Source: Syntrophomonadaceae bacterium
Lineage (GTDB): Bacteria > Bacillota > Syntrophomonadia > Syntrophomonadales > Syntrophomonadaceae
DNA: 45,544 nucleotides
NCBI GenBank assembly: GCA_028692415.1
Contig: JAQUXM010000004.1
Coordinates: forward strand, 6,863 to 52,406
Direction: 5' to 3'
The notes under the pieces are model-generated. The model was not told the DNA's origin. It worked only from the letters and a program-made list of their open reading frames with translations, and made no database searches. The position numbers and the translations under genes are program-made. Position 1 is the stretch's first letter; every line of letters starts with the position of its first letter. This document shows positions 5,113-45,544 of the stretch, piece after piece.

Positions 5113-5178
5113 CATGACAAGGGGAAGGTTCTCCTGTCAGGAAATATTTCCTGACAGGAGAACCTTCCCCTTGTCATG
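5113..5178. repeat. 66-bp perfect palindrome, GGGGAAGGTTCT variant of the GGGGACGGTTCT repeat family
   Basis: CATGACAAGGGGAAGGTTCTCCTGTCAGGAAAT|ATTTCCTGACAGGAGAACCTTCCCCTTGTCATG. Confidence 0.95.
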
Positions 5179-5744: not shown

Positions 5745-5807
5745 AATACCTCGCTTTCCTTTACAATTATAAGTATGATTCTAACAGATTGGAAATGTAT
5801 TAACAAT

Positions 5808-5942
5808 AACGAGGCGGAAAGACGGCCACCCCTCCTTTAAGTGGTTGGGTTACCATTAACAAACCAGGCAGTGGGTTTTAATCGCCCGCCTCGTTGCACG
5901 GTGCGGAAGTAACTGCTTCGCAGTTTCTTCCGATGTTTAAAA
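5808..5942 (+). repeat. two-hairpin dispersed element, copy A
   Basis: AACGAGGCGG...CCGCCTCGTTG then GGAAGtAACTGCTTCGCAGTTTCTTCC; similar sequence recurs at 7210, 7313, 9953(-), 34595 and 38730. Confidence 0.85.
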
Positions 5943-5969: not shown

Positions 5970-7211
5970 TTGAAGAAGGTTATTGTAGTAGGAGGGGGCC
6001 CGGCTGGGATGATGGCCGCTGCAGTTGCAGCCCGGCAGGGGGCTAAAGTCACTTTATTGGAAAAGAAAGAGGCGGTAGGCAAGAAACTGGTCATAACCGG
6101 CAAGGGACGCTGTAACCTGACTTCGGCAATTCCTGATGACCGCTTTATGGCTGGCTATGCCTGTAACGGGAGATTTTTGTACAGTGCGCTGCATGAGTTT
6201 TCCAGTCGTGACTTAATAGATTTTTTTGCGGACAATGGTTTGAAATGCAAGGTAGAAAGAGGACAGCGGGTATTCCCCGAATCCGACCGGGCTGCGGATG
6301 TGGTGAGTATCCTTTATCAAGACCTTATCCATGGGGGAGTCGAACTAAGAAAAAGTGTGGCGGTTAAGGGTCTATATATACATGGCGGGGTGTTAAAAGG
6401 CGTGGCGACGGAGCAGGGAAGACTGGAAGGCGGTGCCGTAGTTATAGCCACGGGTGGCATGTCATATCCCGGAACCGGTTCCACCGGTGATGGCTATGCC
6501 TGGGCCCGGGCAGCAGGGCATCATATTGTTGAACCTCGCCCGGGCCTGGTTCCGCTGGTAACCGCGGAGGCCTGGGTAAAGGAACTGCAGGGTTTAAGCC
6601 TTAAAAATGTACGGGCTTCATCCTACCGGGAGGATGGGAAAAAAATCAATGAGGAATTTGGGGAAATGCTTTTTACGCACTTTGGCGTATCAGGTCCAAT
6701 CATCCTAAGTATGAGCCGGGATATTGGCGAATATCTGTTTTCCCGGGGTCATAAGGTAAAAATGCTGCTTGATTTAAAACCGGCTTTGGATGAGCAGCAG
6801 TTGGACCAGCGCCTGCAAAAGGATCTGGCTAAAAACACCCGTCGGCAGTTTAAAAACGCTTTAGATGAACTGCTGCCCCGCAAGCTTATACCGGTGATAA
6901 TAGAACTAAGTCAAATAGATCCGGAGAAGGAATGTCATCAAGTAACTCGCGACGAGCGAAAAAAACTCCTGCACTTGTTAAAAGGCCTTGAACTTGGCAT
7001 AGTTAAGACTCGACCGCTGGCTGAAGCTATTGTCACTGCCGGCGGGGTGGATGTTAAGGAAGTAAATCCGCGGACGATGGAATCCCGTTTGTTGAAGGAT
7101 TTATTCTTTGCCGGGGAAATCTTGGATGTTGATGGTTATACTGGAGGATTTAACCTGCAGGCAGCATTTTCAACGGGTTTTGTAGCCGGCAAAAATGCGG
7201 CTTTGTTATAA
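5970..7211 (+). CDS. NAD(P)/FAD-dependent oxidoreductase, HI0933/YhiN/BaiN-like flavoprotein
   Basis: MKKVIVVGGGPAGMMAAAVAARQGAKVTLLEKKEAVGKKLVITGKGRCNLT...GGVDVKEVNPRTMESRLLKDLFFAGEILDVDGYTGGFNLQAAFSTG. Confidence 0.92.
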   Translation: MKKVIVVGGGPAGMMAAAVAARQGAKVTLLEKKEAVGKKLVITGKGRCNLTSAIPDDRFMAGYACNGRFLYSALHEFSSRDLIDFFADNGLKCKVERGQRVFPESDRAADVVSILYQDLIHGGVELRKSVAVKGLYIHGGVLKGVATEQGRLEGGAVVIATGGMSYPGTGSTGDGYAWARAAGHHIVEPRPGLVPLVTAEAWVKELQGLSLKNVRASSYREDGKKINEEFGEMLFTHFGVSGPIILSMSRDIGEYLFSRGHKVKMLLDLKPALDEQQLDQRLQKDLAKNTRRQFKNALDELLPRKLIPVIIELSQIDPEKECHQVTRDERKKLLHLLKGLELGIVKTRPLAEAIVTAGGVDVKEVNPRTMESRLLKDLFFAGEILDVDGYTGGFNLQAAFSTGFVAGKNAALL

Positions 7212-7312
7212 CGAGGCGTAAAGCTCTCCCTCGCTTCTTTAAGCTTTCGGGCTGCAATTAACAAAACAGGCGTTGAGTTCTAATCCCCTGCCTCGTTGCA
7301 GCGGTGTGTTGA
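7210..7312 (+). repeat. two-hairpin dispersed element, copy B1 (lacks the 3' hairpin)
   Basis: AACGAGGCGTAAAGC...CTGCCTCGTTGCAGCGGTGTGTTG; starts inside the TAA stop of the preceding gene. Confidence 0.8.
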
Positions 7313-7444
7313 AACGAAGCGGAAAACTGTCCTCCCGCTTCTTTAAACGCTCGGGTTGCTATTAACAAAAAAGACGTTGGGTTCTAATCTCCAGCCGCAG
7401 CGGTGTGCTGAAACTACTCCGCAGTCTCTTCGGATGCTTAAATA
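7313..7444 (+). repeat. two-hairpin dispersed element, copy B2 (tandem to B1)
   Basis: AACGAAGCGGAAAACTGTCCTCCCGCTTCTTTAAACG...GCAGTCTCTTCGGATGCTTAAATA. Confidence 0.8.
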
Positions 7445-8437: not shown

Positions 8438-8661
8438 GGTAAGGCGTGAGGGGTTAGGGGAAGAACGTACTTGCTACCAACATTAAAAACAAGTTAACCC
8501 TTTACCTTCAATTATTATTGATACTTGGTGCTTGATTGGATTAAACCGAATCATAAAAGGTGTTTTTGAACCGGATGTATAGAAAAGAACTGCCGTAATA
8601 TAAATTAAGGTGTGAAATTATTAATTGGTCTACTCCTCACCCCTCACGCCTTACCCCTTAC
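8438..8661. repeat. intergenic element bounded by inverted heptad arrays
   Basis: GGTAAGGCGTGAGGGGTTAGGGG at 8438-8460 and CCTCACCCCTCACGCCTTACCCCTTA at 8634-8661 in opposite orientation. Confidence 0.7.
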
Positions 8662-8679
8662 GATCCGAAGGAGTTTGTG

Positions 8680-9891
8680 ATGTTTACCAAATTTTATTAT
8701 AATCTAAAGGATTATGGAATTCCGGTTTCCATGAATGAGTGGCAGCTGCTGTTGGAGGCACTCGAATCAGGAATGGCCGGGTCCAGCTTGACCGGATTTT
8801 ATTACTTGTGCCGGGCTGTGCTGGTAAAAACTGAAGCCCATTATGACCGCTTTGACCTGGCTTTTGCCAGTTTTTTTGGTGATATTGAGTCTCCTGAAGG
8901 TTTGCCGGATAAAATATGGGAATGGCTGGACAAAGAATTGCCCGAACAGGAGATTACGGAAGCAATGCGGCTCAATCACCAGCAGCTTGACCTGGATGAA
9001 ATGAAACGGATGCTGGAGGAACGGCTGGCCGAGCAAAATGAGGAACACCACGGCGGCAACCGCTGGGTAGGCACTGGAGGGACTTCGCCCTTCGGGCATT
9101 CGGGTTATCACCCGGGAGGTATACGGATTGGCGGCAGTACCCGCAACCTGTCGGCGGTGAAAGTGGCGGGTATGAGGAAATATCAGGAATTCCGCACCGA
9201 TGAAACCCTGGGAATAAGGCAATTTCAGGTAGCCCTCCGCAAGCTGCGGCAATTTACTACCCGCCTGGATGGTGCCCGCACCGAGCTTGATTTGGATGGC
9301 ACTATTGACCGGACCTGCAACAATGCCGGCCGTTTGGAACTGGTTTGGGACCGGCCTCGGGAAAACGGGATAAAGGTTTTGCTGCTGATGGATTCAGGGG
9401 GTTCCATGGTTTCTTACAGCCGTCTTTGCAATCAGTTATTTACAGCGGTAAACCGCTCCAATCATTTTAAGGATTTAAAAATATTCTATTTTCACAACTG
9501 CATTTATGACTGGTTATTCCATGATCCCAGTTGCAGTTTGAATGCCTATACCGATACGGAATATATTTTAAAAACCTATGACAGCGATTACCGGATTATT
9601 ATTGTAGGGGATGCCAGCATGTCTTCCTATGAGTTGATGCGGGTAGGAGGAATTATTGAATGGGGCATGCATAACGATACCCCTGGTATCGAATGGCTGC
9701 GGCGTCTGCGCCAGCATTTTGAATATTCGGTCTGGCTTAATCCGATTCCCAAAAACTATTGGGATTGGATGGAGGGGGTATTTACCATAAATAAAATTGC
9801 TGAGGTTTTTCCCATGGAAAGCCTGACGGTGGAAGGTCTGGAAACTGCAATAACCAAGCTGCGCAGCCGACAGGCGGTTAAAATGGGATGA
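8680..9891 (+). CDS. VWA domain-containing CoxE-like protein
   Basis: LLLMDSGGSMVSYSRLCNQLFTAV...FYFHNCIYDWLFHD...IIIVGDASMS; follows the MoxR ATPase. Confidence 0.88.
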   Translation: MFTKFYYNLKDYGIPVSMNEWQLLLEALESGMAGSSLTGFYYLCRAVLVKTEAHYDRFDLAFASFFGDIESPEGLPDKIWEWLDKELPEQEITEAMRLNHQQLDLDEMKRMLEERLAEQNEEHHGGNRWVGTGGTSPFGHSGYHPGGIRIGGSTRNLSAVKVAGMRKYQEFRTDETLGIRQFQVALRKLRQFTTRLDGARTELDLDGTIDRTCNNAGRLELVWDRPRENGIKVLLLMDSGGSMVSYSRLCNQLFTAVNRSNHFKDLKIFYFHNCIYDWLFHDPSCSLNAYTDTEYILKTYDSDYRIIIVGDASMSSYELMRVGGIIEWGMHNDTPGIEWLRRLRQHFEYSVWLNPIPKNYWDWMEGVFTINKIAEVFPMESLTVEGLETAITKLRSRQAVKMG

Positions 9892-9952: not shown

Positions 9953-10085
9953 TTAAACATCGGAAGAAATTGCAGAGCCGTTTCTTCCGCACCGTTGCAA
10001 TGAGGCGGGGGCTAGAACCCGCCGCCTGTTTTGGTAATAGGAACCCTACCACTTAAAGAAGCTGGGGAGATCTTTGCGACTCGTT
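9953..10085 (-). repeat. two-hairpin dispersed element, copy C (inverted)
   Basis: Reverse complement reads AACGAGTCGCAAAGATCTCCCCAGCTTCTTTAAGTGG...CCCGCCTCATTGCAACGGTGCGGAAGAAACGGCTCTGCAATTTCTTCCGATGTTTAA. Confidence 0.85.
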
Positions 10086-11047: not shown

Positions 11048-11115
11048 AGAGCAAGTGGGGACAGTTCTTGCCTTGCGCGCTAGCGCGCAAGGCAAGAACT
11101 GTCCCCACTTGCTCT
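11048..11115. repeat. 68-bp perfect palindrome (GTGGGGACAGTTCTTG type)
   Basis: AGAGCAAGTGGGGACAGTTCTTGCCTTGCGCGCT|AGCGCGCAAGGCAAGAACTGTCCCCACTTGCTCT. Confidence 0.97.
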
Positions 11116-16562: not shown

Positions 16563-16652
16563 ACAAGGGGACGGCATGACAAGGGGACGGTTCTCCTGTC
16601 AGGAAATATTTCCTGACAGGAGAACCGTCCCCTTGTCATGCCGTCCCCTTGT
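16563..16652. repeat. 90-bp perfect palindrome of the GGGGACGGTTCT repeat family
   Basis: ACAAGGGGACGGCATGACAAGGGGACGGTTCTCCTGTCAGGAAAT|ATTTCCTGACAGGAGAACCGTCCCCTTGTCATGCCGTCCCCTTGT. Confidence 0.97.
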
Positions 16653-17197: not shown

Positions 17198-18337
17198 CTA
17201 GGTTAATTCACCCACATTTTTCAGCTTCATTTTAACCTTAACTTTAATGTCAAGGTTTTCAATGAAACCACTCTGGTCCACCTGGTTCTGAAATTCTTTT
17301 CTCCATTTAGCCAGTATATATTTGTTTATGTCTATACAATCAACTTTGTACTCCTGCTGCATTTTCTCAATGAACTTCATGCAATCTGATTTCGTATCCG
17401 CCGCAATCTGATTTTCTATCATTTTATGTAAATCCGGGTTTTGAATAAAGTTCTTATTAAATTCGTGTTCGATCAGGCTTCCTTTCAGATAGACCGTAAT
17501 CAGGTAGCTAAACTTATCTCCGTTACAATCCATCTTGACCTTGCGACCACCACAACACACATCTACTGATCCCTTATCTAAGATCTGACCATCCTTTTTT
17601 ATAATATAGGGTATATTGCCGGATGCTTCAATGCCCCGCAGCATTACCAGTGAACGGCTTTCATCCAGATTCGCTTTGCCGATCATTTTATCCTTTTTAA
17701 AAATGGCTGTACCTGTGACTTCAACTTTTTGGTTTTTTAAGGTTAATAACGGCATAATGGGATTTTTCCCTGGGGCGCGATTAACCCCAAACTGGTACAA
17801 GGTAGTGGAAGGAATAAAACTACGTTTTTCAGATTGCTTTAAAACTCCTTTAAGGTATTCCCCCATATTTGAGTAATCTTTGATAGGGGCACGCAGAACA
17901 TCTTCCCCCCGCCCTTCGGCAACCGCGAAATTCTCGGTTTTAGGAATTTGAGCTCCCCGGAATAGGGCTTCAACCATATTGTTTATGCCGGCCCGGGCCA
18001 GATCTTCCCCCAGAATAATTACTGCTGCAACTCCGGCCGAATATGTTCCCGGTGAAGAATAAGGCTTCTGACCACGGGCATTGCCGATTAAGATTCCGGT
18101 TGTTCTCTCAATTCTAAAGGGCTTTTTAACATCCTGAGCCAAGTTGGGAATTATAACTGTCAAATCAACCAACGGCTCACCTTGGTTCTGCCTTGCTGCA
18201 GCGATTGAGCTTTCATGCAAGTCATAAGCCCCGGTAGCTGGAAAACTCACCTTATTTACATCACGATAATCCCAACAACCTGAAATGCTAAAGACCAGAA
18301 ATACTATGACGAAGACCAGCAACAGCTTTTTAAACAA
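17198..18337 (-). CDS. Ger(x)C family spore germination lipoprotein (paralogue 1)
   Basis: Lipobox VFSISGCWDYRDVNKV; GerAC-type repeats; overlaps upstream gerB gene. Confidence 0.92.
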   Translation of the reverse strand: MFKKLLLVFVIVFLVFSISGCWDYRDVNKVSFPATGAYDLHESSIAAARQNQGEPLVDLTVIIPNLAQDVKKPFRIERTTGILIGNARGQKPYSSPGTYSAGVAAVIILGEDLARAGINNMVEALFRGAQIPKTENFAVAEGRGEDVLRAPIKDYSNMGEYLKGVLKQSEKRSFIPSTTLYQFGVNRAPGKNPIMPLLTLKNQKVEVTGTAIFKKDKMIGKANLDESRSLVMLRGIEASGNIPYIIKKDGQILDKGSVDVCCGGRKVKMDCNGDKFSYLITVYLKGSLIEHEFNKNFIQNPDLHKMIENQIAADTKSDCMKFIEKMQQEYKVDCIDINKYILAKWRKEFQNQVDQSGFIENLDIKVKVKMKLKNVGELT

Positions 18338-19427
18338 GCATCTTACCTCCCCGCATGAATGCTGCCAGATGATAGAGCAGGGGATAGCCTAGTCCTATTA
18401 TTAGAAAGCCATAACCCGCATAATCCCATAATTTGAAAACTGACAAAAGATTATGGGGGAGAAGCGCAAGTATATATATAGCCAAAGCAATGAACATCAA
18501 AGCATATGTATTATATTTTTTCTCATCAATTTTCAGGAGCTGGCTCAAGGATAGGGAAGCGGCAAATCCCATATTAACTGCCGGCCGTGCTCCCATACCC
18601 ATCCAAAAAACTAAAAATATAAATTCCAAACGTTCAAGCACTGGTACTTGACTGACCTTCAAGAGCATCAGGCCCGGCCATAGTATTCTTTGCAGATTGT
18701 TAACCCCAAAGACCAATAGGCAAGTTATTACCATGGCCAGGTATAATAGCGTGGTGATGCAAACTGCGATTAATCCAGCTTTGAGCACCTCCTCCTGCTT
18801 GTTGACCAGAGAATAGAATACTAAAAGCACTTCGGTCCCGGCAAAAGAATAAGCAGTGGTCAAAGCTCCTCGGGCAATGCCCTTAAGGCCTGCTTCACCG
18901 ACCGGTAAAATATTGGTGTAGTCGGCTTGCCCGACTGGTATTATCAAAATAAAAAGCAGCAACACCCCAAAATAAAAAAGTATTTCATTTAACCTGGCCA
19001 ATACTCTTACTCCCTTGCTGCCGATATAGACAATACTGATAGTTATAAATAGCAATACTACAGCCAGCGGGGTTTTGGGCAATAAATATAAATTGGCTAT
19101 TTCAGCAAAAGATCGTACCACCAGTGATTCGAATAATAAGACATAAGCAATGAAAAGAATTATAAGGACCGACCCGACATTTTTGCCAAACAACCCTAGG
19201 GCCATTTGGGTAAAACCCATTTGTGGCATCCGCCGGCCCAGACGTTCGATCAGGAATACCGACAGAAAAGGAATAATAGCCCCTAGAACTACCGAAATCC
19301 AAGCATCTTCTCCAGCCTTGCCGGAGACCATCCGCGGTAAGGCGAAAATGCCCGCCCCAATTTGGGAACCAATAATAACGAAGATTAACTGTTTACTGGT
19401 GATCGTGGAACTGGTTTTATCTTTCAT
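18330..19427 (-). CDS. GerAB/endospore germination permease (paralogue 1)
   Basis: KQLIFVIIGSQIGAGIFALPRMVSGKAGEDAWISVVLGAIIPFLSVFLIERLGRRMP. Confidence 0.93.
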   Translation of the reverse strand: MKDKTSSTITSKQLIFVIIGSQIGAGIFALPRMVSGKAGEDAWISVVLGAIIPFLSVFLIERLGRRMPQMGFTQMALGLFGKNVGSVLIILFIAYVLLFESLVVRSFAEIANLYLLPKTPLAVVLLFITISIVYIGSKGVRVLARLNEILFYFGVLLLFILIIPVGQADYTNILPVGEAGLKGIARGALTTAYSFAGTEVLLVFYSLVNKQEEVLKAGLIAVCITTLLYLAMVITCLLVFGVNNLQRILWPGLMLLKVSQVPVLERLEFIFLVFWMGMGARPAVNMGFAASLSLSQLLKIDEKKYNTYALMFIALAIYILALLPHNLLSVFKLWDYAGYGFLIIGLGYPLLYHLAAFMRGGKMLV

Positions 19428-21001
19428 TAATCGTTTTCCTCACCGGTATTTCCCTGCCTTTGTGGGTTATGTGAAGGTATGGAAACGGGGCGTTTGTTCA
19501 TTTTCCACATAAATGTACGGATAAAGGTGTCTTTAAGGTCGGAGAAACGGGTGGGAGCCAAGGGACTAAAATAAGGAACTCCCATGCTTTCCAGGCTGAC
19601 CAGATGGGTCAGAAAAATAATTGCCCCAAAGGAAAGACCAAACAACCCAAAGCTTGCGGCCAGCATCATCATGGGCAGTCTTATTATTCGAGTGGATAAT
19701 ACCAAGCTTGATGCAGGAAGAGCATAGGTGCAGATGACCGATACCGAGATAATAAGAATAACAATGGGACTGGCTAATTTGGCAGTAATGGCTGCCTGAC
19801 CTAGTATAATACCCGAAACTACGCCAACTGTTTGACCAATCTGTTGGGGAAGACGTAACCCCGCCTCAATAACCAGTTGGATTATGATTTCCATGATTAA
19901 GGCCTCGACTACTACGGGAAAGGGAACCGCCACGCGGGCTTTAGAGAAGCTGATTAACAAATCATAGGGAAGCAACTCCGGTTGATAGCTAAGAAGCGCA
20001 ATATATGAGGCTGGAAGACTCACTGCGACAATCCAGGCAACATATCGCATTAACCTAATGTAACTGGAAAATAGGGTTCGCTCGTAATAATCTTCGGGGG
20101 CCTGCAAAAACTGCACAAAAAGGGCTGGGACCGCCAAGGCCAATGGAGTATTATCGACTATTATCACTACCCGTCCCTCAAGTAAATAAGGTACCAGCTT
20201 ATCAGGTCGTTCGGAGGAATAAACTTGAGGAAACAAACTCGATGGGTCGTCTTCAATGAATTGCTCCACATAACCGGAGGCAACAATCCCGTCAATATCC
20301 ATCTGATTGATACGATCTTTGACTTTCTGAACAATTTGGGGGTCGGCTATATCGTCAATGTATAATATAGCTACCTCAGTACGGGTCCTACGGCCCACCA
20401 GGGTTTTTTCCACCACCAGGTTGGGGTCCCGCAGCCGGCGCCGGATCAGAGCAATATTTACATCTACCCTTTCTATAAAACCTTCCCGGGAACCCCGCAT
20501 CGTCTGTTCAGCCGGAGGCACATCAATATTTCTGGATTTACCGCCATGAATATCTATGGCCAGTACATCATCAAGGCCATCAAACATTAAAATAGTAATA
20601 CCATCAAATATCGTTTGTACCAGAGAAGATAGATTAGCTATTTTGGCGATACGGCTTGCAGTTATGGACGTCTTATAGATGGTTTCGATTAGAGTATGGG
20701 AGCCCGAGGTTAATAAATCCTCCCTATCACAATTCAGCATCAATGGTTTGAGTATATGGAGGTTGAGAATCTCAATATCTATCACTTGATTTATATAGAC
20801 AGCAACTGCCTCCAGGCGCGGATTACCCTCCAAATAAAAGGAATGGGTTATAATGTCATAGTTTTTTTCAATATAGGGCTTTAAGAGCTGCATTTTTTCA
20901 GACAGAGCTACCGGAAGTTTGGTATCCGGTATATTTTTTATACTTCTATCCCGTGCATCTGCAGTTGGCGGTGTTTTTCTGGGTCTTATCTTCATAATCA
21001 T
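19427..21001 (-). CDS. GerA family spore germination protein (GerAA-like)
   Basis: SFYLEGNPRLEAVAVYINQVID...RGSREGFIERVDVNIALIRRRLRDPNLVVEKTLVGRRTRTEVAILYIDDIADP. Confidence 0.95.
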   Translation of the reverse strand: MIMKIRPRKTPPTADARDRSIKNIPDTKLPVALSEKMQLLKPYIEKNYDIITHSFYLEGNPRLEAVAVYINQVIDIEILNLHILKPLMLNCDREDLLTSGSHTLIETIYKTSITASRIAKIANLSSLVQTIFDGITILMFDGLDDVLAIDIHGGKSRNIDVPPAEQTMRGSREGFIERVDVNIALIRRRLRDPNLVVEKTLVGRRTRTEVAILYIDDIADPQIVQKVKDRINQMDIDGIVASGYVEQFIEDDPSSLFPQVYSSERPDKLVPYLLEGRVVIIVDNTPLALAVPALFVQFLQAPEDYYERTLFSSYIRLMRYVAWIVAVSLPASYIALLSYQPELLPYDLLISFSKARVAVPFPVVVEALIMEIIIQLVIEAGLRLPQQIGQTVGVVSGIILGQAAITAKLASPIVILIISVSVICTYALPASSLVLSTRIIRLPMMMLAASFGLFGLSFGAIIFLTHLVSLESMGVPYFSPLAPTRFSDLKDTFIRTFMWKMNKRPVSIPSHNPQRQGNTGEEND

Positions 21002-21146: not shown

Positions 21147-22283
21147 CTAGGTTAGCTCCCCGGTGTTTTTTAGTTTCATTTTAACTTCGACCTCAATATT
21201 TACATTTTCAATAAATTCCTGATCGACTTTATCCTCCAATTCTTTTCCCCATCTAGCCACGGCGTATTTGCTAATATCGATGCAGTCTATTCTATACTCT
21301 TGCTGCATTTTGCTAATAAATTTATAACAATCTTTTTTAACATCGGAAGCTATTTGACTTTCTATCATTTGTTGCAAATTCTCATTTTCGGTAAAAAGCT
21401 TGCCGAATTGATGTTCGATAAGATTTCCTTCCAGCATAACAATTATTAGAAAATTAATATCGTCACCATTACGTTCTACTTTAACTTTGCGCTTATTGCT
21501 TGCATCCACCGAACCTCTATCTAATATGATGCCGTTTCGTTTAATCGTAAACGCTACATTGCCTGTTGCCTTAATACCCCGCAGCAGCATCAGTGAGCGG
21601 GTCTCAGTTAAATTGGCCTTGCCGATCATGCGGTCTTTTTTGAAAATAGCCGTACCGGTAACCTCAGCTTTTTTATTTTTTTGTTTTATTAGGGGCATGA
21701 TGGGATTTTTGCCTGGGCCTTGCCAAACTTCAAAGTTGTGTAAAGTAGTGGCTGGGATAAAACCACGTCTTTCAGATTTTTGCAGTATTCCCTTAAGATA
21801 ATCTGCCATACTGAGGTAATCCTCCACGGGAGCCTCTAAGATGCCGTCTCCCCTTCCTTCACTAATTGCGAAATTTTGGATACTTGGACTCAGGGCTCCC
21901 CGAAACAGCGCTTGAAAAATATTATTTAACCCGGTTCCGGCCAAATCTTCACCTACAATTATTATCCCGGTGGCCCCCGGCGAATATGTCCCGGTTGAGG
22001 TATAGGGTTTTTGCCCCCGTGCATTGCCAACCGTGACTCCAGTTGTTTTTTCAATTCTAAATTTTAATGTGGCGTTTTGGGCCAGATTAGGAAGAATAAC
22101 CGCTAGATCTATCAGCTGCTCTTGGTTTGCCTCATCGCGCAAAGCCCTAAGGCCAACTTCATGCAGGTCATAGGCAGCAGCCAGGGGGAAATCAATCCGG
22201 TTGACATCCCGATAGTCCCAGCATCCCGCAAGCATAACCAGCTGAATTCCCAGCAGGATAAGCAGTACGCATCTTCTAAACAT
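21147..22283 (-). CDS. Ger(x)C family spore germination lipoprotein (paralogue 2)
   Basis: Lipobox VMLAGCWDYRDVNRI; closely similar to the 17198-18337 product. Confidence 0.92.
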   Translation of the reverse strand: MFRRCVLLILLGIQLVMLAGCWDYRDVNRIDFPLAAAYDLHEVGLRALRDEANQEQLIDLAVILPNLAQNATLKFRIEKTTGVTVGNARGQKPYTSTGTYSPGATGIIIVGEDLAGTGLNNIFQALFRGALSPSIQNFAISEGRGDGILEAPVEDYLSMADYLKGILQKSERRGFIPATTLHNFEVWQGPGKNPIMPLIKQKNKKAEVTGTAIFKKDRMIGKANLTETRSLMLLRGIKATGNVAFTIKRNGIILDRGSVDASNKRKVKVERNGDDINFLIIVMLEGNLIEHQFGKLFTENENLQQMIESQIASDVKKDCYKFISKMQQEYRIDCIDISKYAVARWGKELEDKVDQEFIENVNIEVEVKMKLKNTGELT

Positions 22284-23376
22284 ACATTCTCACCCCGCCG
22301 CGCCAGAATGCTGCCAAATGGTAAAGCAAGGGATAGCCCACTCCCATAACAAAAAAACCATAGCCGGCATACTCAGCCAGCTTGAAAGCTGCCAGAACAT
22401 CATGTGGCAGCAAGGCCAGTATAAATATGCCCAACCCGACAAAAACCAGAGAATATATGTGGTATTTTTGCTCGTCTATCCTTAATAACTGGCTTAAGGA
22501 TAGAGAAGCCGCAAAGCCCATGTTAATAGTCGGCCGTGCTCCGGTCCCCAGCCATACAAACAGGAATATGAACTCCAAACGCTCAATTACCGGTATTTGC
22601 GCAACCTTTAGCAATACCAGTCCCGGCCAGATTATTTTTTGCAGACCATAAGTTCCAAAAACCAGTTCACCAATGATAACCATGGCGCAAAACAAAGCTG
22701 TTACTATTCCGATAGCTGTCAACCCTGCTTTCATAACTTCTTCCTTCTTGTTCACCAATGTATAAAAAACCAGGAGTATTTCAGTACCGGCAAAGTAATA
22801 GGCGGAAGTAAAAGCTCCCTGGGCAATTCCTTTCAATCCCGACTCGCCTACCGGTAAAAGGTTGGTATAGTCTGATTGTCCTAAAGGTAATAACAAGAAC
22901 ATGAAAGATAATAGAAGCAGGTAAAACATGAATTCATTTATCCTCCCCAGTACCCTTGCTCCTTTGCTTCCGATATATATAATGGTGAATATGTACATCA
23001 ACAAAACTACGGTCAGTGGTGTTTTTGGCAAAAGATATAGTTTGGTAACTTCGGCATATATTCGTACTACTAGGGATTCAAAAGCTATTACATAGGCAAT
23101 AAAAAGTATTATAAGGAAGGACCCTATATATTTGCCGAACAAAGCAGTTGTCATCTGGATAAAGTTTTGGTCCGGCATCCGTTTGCCCAAGCGTTCAATT
23201 AAATACAGCGAAATAATCGGAATTATGGCACTTAGGATTACCGCTATCCAGGCATCTTTGCCAGCATATTCGGATACCACGCGGGGCAGGCTGAATACTC
23301 CTAAACCAAATTGGGCCCCGATAATAACGAATATTAATTGCTTGCTGCTAATCATGGAGCCCGTTTTATCTTTCAT
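22276..23376 (-). CDS. GerAB/endospore germination permease (paralogue 2)
   Basis: MKDKTGSMISSKQLIFVIIGAQFGLGVFSLPRVVSEYAGKDAWIAVILSAIIPIISLYLIERLGKRMP; closely similar to the 18330-19427 product. Confidence 0.93.
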   Translation of the reverse strand: MKDKTGSMISSKQLIFVIIGAQFGLGVFSLPRVVSEYAGKDAWIAVILSAIIPIISLYLIERLGKRMPDQNFIQMTTALFGKYIGSFLIILFIAYVIAFESLVVRIYAEVTKLYLLPKTPLTVVLLMYIFTIIYIGSKGARVLGRINEFMFYLLLLSFMFLLLPLGQSDYTNLLPVGESGLKGIAQGAFTSAYYFAGTEILLVFYTLVNKKEEVMKAGLTAIGIVTALFCAMVIIGELVFGTYGLQKIIWPGLVLLKVAQIPVIERLEFIFLFVWLGTGARPTINMGFAASLSLSQLLRIDEQKYHIYSLVFVGLGIFILALLPHDVLAAFKLAEYAGYGFFVMGVGYPLLYHLAAFWRGGVRMYV

Positions 23377-23515
23377 TGCTATTACTTCTCTCCTCCGGTA
23401 TTTTTACGAAGCGTTCTATCCCGTTATTGATACTGATCATTGCTTAGCTTCGATCGGATGAGTTTGTTTTTTTCTACTTGATGCCGCGACATAGGGAGAC
23501 GTTATTGTTGTGTCA

Positions 23516-24854: not shown

Positions 24855-25048
24855 AGTGAGGAGTAAGGAGTAAAAATCTATTAACTCCATAAGCGCATCC
24901 TTGATTAGCGGTCAAAGAGCATGTCGTAACGCTCGAGCAGCCTTAATGGTTAAGTTATAAATTGAAGTACGGGAAGGGTGGACACAAGGTATGAGCAAAA
25001 ATATCGTCGTACTAGTCACCCCTAACACCTAACCCCTTACACCTTACG
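24855..25048. repeat. intergenic element bounded by inverted heptad arrays
   Basis: AGTGAGGAGTAAGGAGTAA at 24855 and TCACCCCTAACACCTAACCCCTTACACCTTACGA at 25016-25048. Confidence 0.65.
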
Positions 25049-25162
25049 ATTTAAAAGAATATAGAATATATTCTTTTAAATCCAGGCCTACTGTGTTAAA
25101 TTATTTCTGTTGGCAATAGTCATAGCAATCAATGATTGCAAAACATCAAGGGAGTGGAGAAA

Positions 25163-25487: not shown

Positions 25488-25507
25488 TCATGTAGAAATA
25501 ATAAAAA

Positions 25508-25540
25508 GTGAGGAGTGAGGGGTTAGGGGTGAGGAGTAGG
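25508..25540 (+). repeat. heptad array (GTGAGGGGTTAGGGGTGAGG)
   Basis: gtgaggagtgaggggttaggggtgaggagtagg, 7-bp periodicity. Confidence 0.75.
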
Positions 25541-25679
25541 AATTTTAGCAGTTACACCTCCAGCCATACATTCTATATCTCACTCAACTTTTAGGGCATT
25601 GCCCGTACGCCACCCTGTGGATACTGCCATGTTAACTAGGGCTACGCTTACGGGTGAGAGTTATATTACGGCTGGTTAT

Positions 25680-25970
25680 TAACTCAACTTGCTGACCAAA
25701 AGAATAGGCTGAAAGCCCGAAAAAGCAATAAAATAAACTGTTTAAAATCCCATATTGATGAACATCGCGAGCTATCTTATAGGTCATTGCGAGTGCAGCG
25801 AAGCAATCTATCCATCGACAAGTCATTTTGAATTGCTTCGCTACAGCTCGCAATTATCACGGGTAATAACCCGCCACGCGAGTATTCATGGCAATGACAA
25901 AGGAGAAGCGTTGCCTAAGCAATGACAATTTAGTTTGTCGCATAATATGTCAACTACGAAAGTTGAGTTA
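25680..25970. repeat. putative MITE-like element containing CATTGCGAG-type repeats
   Basis: Possible TIR TAACTCAACTT (25680-25690)/AAGTTGAGTTA (25960-25970); interior ggtcattgcgagtgcagcgaagcaatct and attgcttcgctacagctcgcaattatcacgggtaataacccgccacg. Confidence 0.55.
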
Positions 25971-29538: not shown

Positions 29539-29590
29539 GTTCTCTTACGGGAAGAACACCAACCCGCTCTCCTCAATAATTCTAAATACC

Positions 29591-29976
29591 AAATTTGATT
29601 CCCCTGCAAAAAGTAATAATCGTGCATTGCGAGCGATAGCATAATGTCATTTCTATGAAACTAGTGTGCTTGTCATTGCGAGGAGCGTAAGCGACGCGGC
29701 AATCTTCCCCGGTCATTGCCGCATATAATGAAAAATGCTCTAACGCTTTTCGTTTATCGTGGCGGGTTATTACCCGTGATAATTGCGAGCGATAGCGAAG
29801 CAATCTATAGTGTCTTTGCGTGTGAAGCAGAAAAAGATTGCCGCGCTGCGCTCGCAATGACAGGTTTGGAGCTTACTTGCCGTTATTGTTTTCATAACAA
29901 TGACAGAATTGCAAAGCAATCGTTTCTATCAATGCTATTCAGGGACACCATTGGTTTTTGCATTGGAATCAAATTT
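29591..29976. mobile_element. MITE-like non-coding element of CATTGCGAG repeats bounded by 22-bp TIRs
   Basis: AAATTTGATTCCCCTGCAAAAA (29591-29612) versus inverted TTTTTGCATTGGAATCAAATTT (29955-29976), 2 mismatches; 5' part and 3' interior recur near-identically at 45348-45544. Confidence 0.75.
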
Positions 29977-30023: not shown

Positions 30024-30095
30024 AGTGAGGCGTCAGGCGTGAAGGGTAAGGAAGATGTATCAATCCTCACCCCTCACCCCTTACACCTTACACTT
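30024..30095. repeat. inverted pair of heptad arrays upstream of livH
   Basis: GTGAGGCGTCAGGCGTGAAGGGTAAGG (30024) and CCTCACCCCTCACCCCTTACACCTTACAC (30064). Confidence 0.75.
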
Positions 30096-30109
30096 TATAG
30101 GAGGAACTT

Positions 30110-30985
30110 ATGTTCTGGGAACAGTTGTTGAACGGTTTGACGCTGGGAAGCACCTATGCTTTGATAGCGCTGGGCTATACCATGGTTTATGGAATTGTAC
30201 AACTAATCAATTTTGCGCATGGTGAGATATATATGTTCGGTGCGTTTGCCGGGCTATTTCTGGTCAGCTTCTGCGGCGTCAACATCGTGCTGGCTTTGCT
30301 GGGGGCGATGGCCTTTTGCATGCTGCTGGGCATGTTGATCGAACGCATTGCCTATCGCCCGCTGCGGGGCAAATCATCCCGTCTTTCCGCTTTAATCAGT
30401 GCAATTGGGGTATCGATATTTCTTTCCACTCTGATGGTCTTGCTGGCTGAAACCAATACCCGCCGTTATCCTGATGTAGTACCAAATCATAGCTTTCATC
30501 TCGGATCACTTGATTTTTCTCTTATGCAGATAATAATACTGCTGTTTTCCGCAGTACTGATGGTGGGTTTGCAGCTAATGGTGCAGAAAACCCGCATAGG
30601 CAAGGCCATGCGGGCTTGCTCGCAGGATTTGGATGCGGCTTACCTGATGGGGATTAATGTCAACCGGGTCATTTCCTTCACCTTTGCGGTTGGCTCAGCC
30701 CTGGCGGCGGCTGGCGGAGTCATGGTAGCGATTTACTATAATGCAGTATGGCCTTATATGGGTACCATGGCTGGGCTGAAAGCGTTTTCGGCCGCGGTGT
30801 TGGGGGGTATAGGCTCGATACCGGGGGCAATGATCGGGGGTCTCAGCCTTGGCGTTTTGGAGATTATGGGAGTTGCCTATCTCTCTTCTTCCTATAAAGA
30901 TGCCATTGCTTTTGGCATTCTCATCCTGGTTTTACTGATTCGGCCCCAGGGTTTGCTGGGGCAAAAGATTTCCAAGAAGGTGTAG
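30110..30985 (+). CDS. livH: branched-chain amino acid ABC transporter permease LivH
   Basis: NGLTLGSTYALIALGYTMVYGIVQLINFAHGEIYMFGAF. Confidence 0.95.
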   Translation: MFWEQLLNGLTLGSTYALIALGYTMVYGIVQLINFAHGEIYMFGAFAGLFLVSFCGVNIVLALLGAMAFCMLLGMLIERIAYRPLRGKSSRLSALISAIGVSIFLSTLMVLLAETNTRRYPDVVPNHSFHLGSLDFSLMQIIILLFSAVLMVGLQLMVQKTRIGKAMRACSQDLDAAYLMGINVNRVISFTFAVGSALAAAGGVMVAIYYNAVWPYMGTMAGLKAFSAAVLGGIGSIPGAMIGGLSLGVLEIMGVAYLSSSYKDAIAFGILILVLLIRPQGLLGQKISKKV

Positions 30986-34534: not shown

Positions 34535-34594
34535 TTTTTACTTATGTCTGGCAAACTCAGGGATTTTCTTCGCTTTATAAAGCACAATATTTAT

Positions 34595-34733
34595 AACAAG
34601 GTAAAAAGATGTCTCCCGCTTCTTTAAGCGGCCAGGTTCCTGTTAACGGAAACGGACGGTGGGTTTTAATCTCCCGCCTCCTTGCAGCGGTGCGGAAGAA
34701 ACTGCTCTGCAGTTTCTTCCGATGCTTAAATAG
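34595..34733 (+). repeat. two-hairpin dispersed element, copy D
   Basis: AACAAGGTAAAAAGATGTCTCCCGCTTCTTTAAGCGGCC...CCCGCCTCCTTGCAGCGGTGCGGAAGAAACTGCTCTGCAGTTTCTTCCGATGCTTAAATA. Confidence 0.85.
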
Positions 34734-38729: not shown

Positions 38730-38978
38730 AACGAGGCGCAAAGACCTCCCCCGCTTCTTTGAGTGGCCGGATTCATATTAACCCCCCATATTCGCAACAT
38801 CAGTAGTGCCCGCAGGGGTGCACCCACCTATGAAAATGGGGAAAGATTGCCACGTCGCTGCGCTCCTCGCAATGACAAGCACACTAGTTTCATAGCAATG
38901 ACAGGGCGGCGGACTAATCTCCCGCCTCGTTGCAGCGGTGTATTGAAACTGCTCCGCAGTTTCTTTCGATGCCTAAAT
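38730..38978 (+). repeat. two-hairpin dispersed element, copy E, interrupted by a CATTGCGAG-family insertion
   Basis: AACGAGGCGCAAAGACCTCCCCCGCTTCTTTGAGTGGCCGG...attaac [insert about 38783-38903] ggcggcggactaatctCCCGCCTCGTTGCAGCGGTGTATTGAAACTGCTCCGCAGTTTCTTTCGATGCCTAAA. Confidence 0.8.
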
Positions 38979-45078: not shown

Positions 45079-45090
45079 TCCCGTAAGGGT

Positions 45091-45325
45091 AGCGCCTGAC
45101 CCACTTAAACAATTATGAATTATGAATTCTTAATTAAGGAAGGGATTGCTTTGCAATCACAACCATCATTCAAAATTAAAAATTAAGAATTCAAAATTTC
45201 AGAAGTGGGTGACGAGGAGGGGGCTTATCGAATTATCGGCGGATACCCCCCGGTGCAACCACCACCGTTAGTATGGTTTTAAAGACGGCTGGCAACAGCC
45301 GGGACAAAAAGCCTTGCCGTGGGAT
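45091..45325 (+). ncRNA. glmS ribozyme: glmS glucosamine-6-phosphate-activated ribozyme with expanded P1 loop
   Basis: A|GCGCCTGacccactt ... aagtgggTGACGAGGaGGGGGcTTATCGAATTATCGGCGGATaCCCCCCGG, closely resembling the B. subtilis glmS ribozyme core as recalled (GCGCC...TGACGAGGAGGAGGTTTATCGAATTTTCGGCGGATGCCTCCCGG); downstream ...GGGACAAAAAGCC; located right after glmM. Confidence 0.93.
45107..45202. repeat. AT-rich inverted-repeat element inside the glmS ribozyme P1 loop
   Basis: GAATTCTTAATT (45124-45135) perfectly inverted as AATTAAGAATTC (45181-45192), with internal hairpin GATTGCtttGCAATC. Confidence 0.85.
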
Positions 45326-45347
45326 AAGAAAATTTGGAATTATGAAT

Positions 45348-45544
45348 TATGATTCCCCTGCAAAAAGTAATAATCGTGCATTGCGAGCGATAGCATAATG
45401 TCATTGCGAGCGATAGTATAATGTCATTGCGAGCGATAGCGAAGCAATCTATAGTGTCTTTGCGTGTGAAGCAGAATAAGATTGCCGCGCTGCGCTCGCA
45501 ATGACAGAATTGCAAAGCAATCGTTTCTATTCAATGCTATTCAG
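45348..45544. mobile_element. CATTGCGAG mosaic/MITE-like element, truncated by window end
   Basis: gattcccctgcaaaaagtaataatcgtgcattgcgagcgatagcataatgtcatt identical to the 29598 copy, with shared 3' interior cagaattgcaaagcaatcgtttctat(t)caatgctattcag. Confidence 0.8.

Follow-up and report, generated by a model that had tools for sequence, protein, structure and literature searches.

The window analysed here is a stretch of 45,544 nucleotides from a Syntrophomonadaceae bacterium in which a short repeat recurs. The question that it raises is whether this repeat is a small mobile element or a repeated structured RNA, such as a 5'-UTR element, since the sequence-only reading had considered both. 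The results strongly support a small non-autonomous mobile element. This element is probably of the PATE kind, a short, transposase-free derivative of IS200/IS605 (PMC3119063), and would move as the IS200/IS605 elements do.

The repeat family in the window and in related genomes

Sequence comparison and a profile search confirmed the six copies of the window. Copy 1 (ACGAGG...TTTAA, 5809-5940, plus strand) retains AATA at its left end (5805-5808, plus strand), where the consensus has TATA. Copy 2 (7211-7313, plus strand) has no 3' hairpin and runs directly into its tandem partner, copy 3 (7314-7441, plus strand), and copy 4 is inverted (9953-10084, minus strand). Copy 5 is full length (34596-34729, plus strand) and lies between a TATA (34592-34595) and the gene for a TrmL-like protein (SpoU methylase). 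Copy 6 consists of a left part (38731-38782, plus strand) and a right part (38904-38976, plus strand), separated by another repeat of ~120 bp (38783-38903), part of which matches a repeat at 29645-29687. Thus, the architecture proposed as common to all copies belongs to a real family, but it is interrupted in the copy at 38730 and incomplete in the one at 7210. A second dispersed repeat family (ATTGCGAGCGATAGCGAAGCAATC...) is found at 25820-25878, 29575-29929 and 45329-45530, and one piece of it (38861-38903) is within copy 6.

The estimate of about six copies is right for the window, but not for the genome. With a covariance model, at least 150 copies were found among the matches listed for the 3.0-Mb host assembly, at least 150 among those listed for a congener (G001), and 136 in the complete 2.94-Mb genome of a member of the same family (G021). 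A profile grown from a single copy recovered 58 copies in ~254 kb of host stretches picked for holding copies, and nhmmer E-values as low as 1e-48 place the family far above chance. Regarding its distribution, the repeat was present in 18 of the 63 genomes of the class, all 18 within one family; the high-copy status is restricted to two genera, and the other positive genomes have 1-10 matches. The copies show a mean identity of 91% to the family consensus (TATAACGAGGCGAAAAGATGTCCCCCGCTTCTTTAAGCGGTCGGGTTCCTATTAACAAAACAGGCGGCGGGTTCTAATCCCCCGCCTCGTTGCAGCGGTGCGGAAGAAACTGCTCCGCAGTTTCTTCCGATGCTTAAA) and of 84% to each other, and this star-like radiation is a burst from one master or consensus sequence.

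The repeat gave no match in Rfam, at gathering or at lax thresholds, nor in phage and plasmid collections, and a literature search on repeats in Syntrophomonas returned no paper. The earlier statement that no named family can be assigned is correct for the sequence, but the behaviour of the repeat fits PATE and IS200/IS605 elements, as described below.

Boundaries and insertion rule

The edges of the repeat are sharp, TATA|AC on the left and CTTAA|A on the right (the bar marks the junction), and the flanks beyond them are of approximately random composition. The inserted segment, ACGAGG...GATGCTTAA, measures ~133 bp in the alignments, which is too short for encoding a transposase. It is inserted directly 3' of TATA (TATA^A), so the conserved TATA preceding ACGAGG is the target sequence and stays at the left end. 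The conserved tail noted before is present, but the element ends at CTTAA and the 'ATA' of that tail is mostly flank.

The search for empty sites in related genomes recovered exact ones, about ten in total, which is the finding that bears out the mobile-element reading. In the best of them, G059 is filled and G021 is empty (TTTATA|ATGCGAGC), with flanks 99.6% identical. The most informative site is filled in G021 (...CTTAA|GTAGCAC) and empty in G060 (ATATA|GTAGCAC), from which it follows that the left A belongs to the element. Another comparison was G021 with G059 and G060 (AATA|AGCAAAGG), and others came from G059 with G060 and G001 with G021. Some of the sites compared between genera have diverged, and a few deviate from the rule by 1-2 bases.

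Four of the window insertions could be followed in the same way. The site of the copy at 5808 is uninterrupted in G001 (TATTAACAATA|AAGG), the copy at 38730 is also absent from G001, and the copy at 34595 is absent from G021. The insertion at 7210 is shared by the host and its congener G001 and is missing in G021; therefore, some insertions predate the separation of the species and others are younger than it. Near the site of the host copy at 34595, G001 carries a TnpB-type element (Cas12f1-like_TNB; L134:1-480 and the end of L135) located after TATTTAA.

Neither target duplication nor loss of target bases was seen in the about ten empty sites. A duplication of 1 or 2 bp was rejected as well, because in 12 copies the first base of the right flank is not A and the left base is still A. 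Terminal inverted repeats are also missing, as the ends TATA|ACGAGG and CTTAA| differ. A classical MITE, which requires both inverted repeats and target duplication, was consequently discarded on the basis of the end consensus, the empty sites and the unmatched end bases.

Hairpins and orientation to the replication fork

Folding the consensus strand with DNA parameters gave three separate hairpins (z = -5.4), all on one DNA strand (z of -5.4 and -4.7), with the outer two set in from the ends by ~17 nt on the left and ~9 nt on the right. Their counterparts in copy 5 are the left subterminal hairpin CCCGCTTCTTTAAGCGG (34615-34631, plus strand), the middle hairpin GGACGGTGGGTTTTAATCTCCCGCC (34654-34678, plus strand) and the right subterminal hairpin (34694-34720, plus strand), 9 nt from the right end, in which the majority of the family's compensatory changes are found. 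The long AACGAGGCG/CGCCTCGTT stem described previously also forms in the minimum-energy fold with RNA parameters, but the DNA fold has the three hairpins instead.

According to a simple home-made gene caller, the copies are intergenic in 57/58 and 95/96 cases (152/154 in total), whereas 68-73% of TATAA sites fall in called genes. In 20 of the 81 cases that have a co-directional upstream gene, the TAA across the left junction serves as the stop codon of this gene, as it does in copy 2 with the YhiN-like gene. Insertion into promoter -10 boxes was also considered and rejected, given that -35 elements are not enriched compared with unoccupied TATAA sites.

In the complete genome G021, the only one used for this analysis, 94 of 127 copies are co-oriented with the replication fork (p=6e-8), with origin and terminus placed according to GC skew along the stretches analysed. 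This bias persists between divergent genes (26:8, p=0.003). It could be due in part to selection through leading-strand genes, and a replication-linked bias is a known feature of IS200/IS605 elements (PMC5371812).

The IS200/IS605 behaviour is proposed because the left tetranucleotide is kept, there is no duplication, the hairpins are on one strand and the orientation is linked to the fork; the first three features have been described for the insertion of these elements (PMC7290912, PMC6006769). In this model, a transposase of the Y1 HUH type, supplied in trans, would bind the hairpins on single-stranded DNA. The cuts would be made 3' of TATA on the left and 3' of TTAA on the right, and the strand would be excised and then pasted into the single-stranded lagging-strand template. 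The burst has probably come largely to an end, leaving an element that is now mostly inert, and this would be in line with the lack of a transposase match in the host genome. On the other hand, no guide tetranucleotides could be assigned in the element, and this counts against IS200/IS605.

Search for a transposase

The Y1 family PF01797 had no match in the host genome. A search for an autonomous copy, using 5'-only and 3'-only matches and the surroundings of Y1 genes, yielded only deletion and nested-insert derivatives, with no transposase; that no transposase gene with the ends of the element turned up counts against the PATE assignment. A true IS200 is present in the same bacterial family (G050), with a left hairpin (CCCCCGCC...GGCGGG), a right hairpin and AT-rich ends (TTTAAT). 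Its layout resembles that of the element, whose left hairpin looks alike and whose ends are likewise rich in AT, but the sequences of the two are not significantly similar.

The only intact Y1 proteins in G001, G021, G059 and G060 have ~255-300 aa and are RAYT-like, as are the Y1 proteins of G022. This speaks for a domesticated RAYT (class 2 TnpA-REP Y1) as the agent that spread the repeat, which would then be REP/REPIN-like rather than a PATE of an IS200 transposon. The REP-like high copy number and intergenic placement point the same way, as do class 2 subclasses described as carrying a C-terminal domain but lacking any known REP partner (PMC6006769). This explanation is nevertheless rather unlikely, since the element has ~133 bp instead of 21-65 nt, no GTAG foot was identified in it, no copy was found beside the 18 Y1 loci of G001, G021 and G022 (flanks up to 1.5 kb), and the same type of Y1 protein is common in genomes without any copy. 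The more specific proposal that the element is the substrate of the REP-less, C-terminally extended RAYT-like Y1 proteins of this bacterial family is unlikely too. If true, a domesticated class of Y1 transposases would be tied to a mobile element of 130 nt that has three hairpins and targets TATA.

Insertion without duplication is also possible for IS110-like and IS91/Helitron-like elements and for retroposition of a structured RNA, and Helitron/IS91-like elements have a hairpin at a similar distance (~10 nt) from their 3' end. Moreover, the arm GGGTTCTAATCCC resembles a T-loop, so that an origin from a tRNA comes to mind. It is improbable, however, that the repeat is a passenger of one of these systems: the tetranucleotide on the 5' side, the co-orientation with the fork and the hairpins at both ends fit IS200/IS605 better, no repeated core is present at the element ends, and ARAGORN detected no tRNA in the window, so the tRNA-like reading was rejected.

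Covariation and orientation to genes

RNAalifold predicted no consensus structure for the family, and in 50 copies standard pairs amounted to 90.6%, versus 89.7% with shuffled partners. The two sides of a pair have thus changed nearly independently of each other, which leaves the idea of a conserved 5'-UTR RNA unsupported. Compensatory changes were more numerous than in shuffles (22 vs 9.4), mainly in the 3' (right) hairpin, and this clustering suggests that the right hairpin was of importance in the active lineages.

Apart from the inverted copy 4, the copies of the window do face the next gene, with gaps to the start codon of 29, 103 (the tandem pair), 33 and 60 bp. Neither the orientation nor the 30-60 bp spacing that had been pointed out extends to the rest of the host genome: the downstream gene is co-directional in 31 of 54 copies (31:23, p=0.34, not significant), and the 3' distance to it goes from overlap to >1 kb, with a median of 118. 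Hence, although the window spacing, the stable RNA fold and the compensatory changes would be consistent with a repeated and also dispersed regulator in the form of a structured RNA or 5'-UTR, such a regulator is very improbable in view of the almost independent pairs, the weak gene-facing orientation, the lack of an Rfam match and of upstream -35 enrichment, the exact and species-specific insertions, and a bias in the complete relative that tracks the fork even between divergent genes.

Nested inserts and other repeats

Several G021 copies (L094, L097, L098, L111, L114 and L120) carry the same REP-like insert of ~48 bp (ATCCTTAATAGTGAGCGAAGCGAACATCAGTGGTGCCCGCAGGGTGC) at one place in the left hairpin. 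Its identity among copies suggests that the composite itself underwent amplification. In the G022 copies, a different small insert is located where the right hairpin has its foot. Small repeats that target the palindromes of PATEs have been reported (PMC3119063).

Other features of the window were also recorded. Spacerless perfect palindromes, 66-90 bp long, are located at 5113-5178, 11048-11115 and 16563-16652, the first and third sharing GGTTCTCCTGTCAGGAAAT. Repeats of the CTCACCCCTCACCCCTTACACCTTAC type occur in both orientations (8634-8684, 25020-25070, 25496-25541 and 30064-30114), and similar runs are found in G021 (L094). A segment of two genes occurs twice as a direct repeat (17198-19428 and 21147-23377, 3949 bp apart, ~71% identical in aligned blocks), and the Rfam search located a glmS ribozyme/riboswitch at 45080-45327 (88.8 bits).

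Comparison with known systems

As a PATE-like element, this repeat would add a bacterial case of a highly abundant IS200/IS605-like passenger with base-exact empty sites, and the complete genome makes its fork-linked orientation measurable. It also explains many intergenic hairpins in the high-copy genomes, which calls for caution before these are read as riboswitches or UTR structures. Furthermore, Y1 proteins without a known partner could be tried on it as a defined substrate that has TATA as target and TTAA as end.

Regarding the REP, BIME and REPIN sequences and their RAYTs, they are likewise short, palindromic, intergenic repeats tied to Y1 proteins, but the element is longer, has three hairpins and no identified GTAG foot, and is not beside the RAYT-like genes examined. 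The bcr1-type repeats of Bacillus cereus are dispersed structured elements of ~150 bp without genes; they duplicate their target, and the element does not.

With IS608, ISDra2 and the IS200 of G050, the element shares insertion 3' of a tetra- or pentanucleotide, the absence of target site duplication, subterminal hairpins on one strand and a replication-linked orientation, but it has neither tnpA nor tnpB. The sequences of its two subterminal hairpins are not alike, in contrast to IS608, and this counts against the assignment; another IS200/IS605 family member with differing hairpins is described (PMC7290912).

The PATEs of Haloquadratum (PMC3119063) differ in that the host here is a bacterium, the sequence is unrelated, the target is TATA and no IS605-type transposon with the same ends was found. 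In common, both lack terminal inverted repeats, target duplication and room for a transposase, and both have near-terminal palindromes, a high copy number, small repeats nested in the palindromes and a conserved terminal oligonucleotide that is the target sequence.
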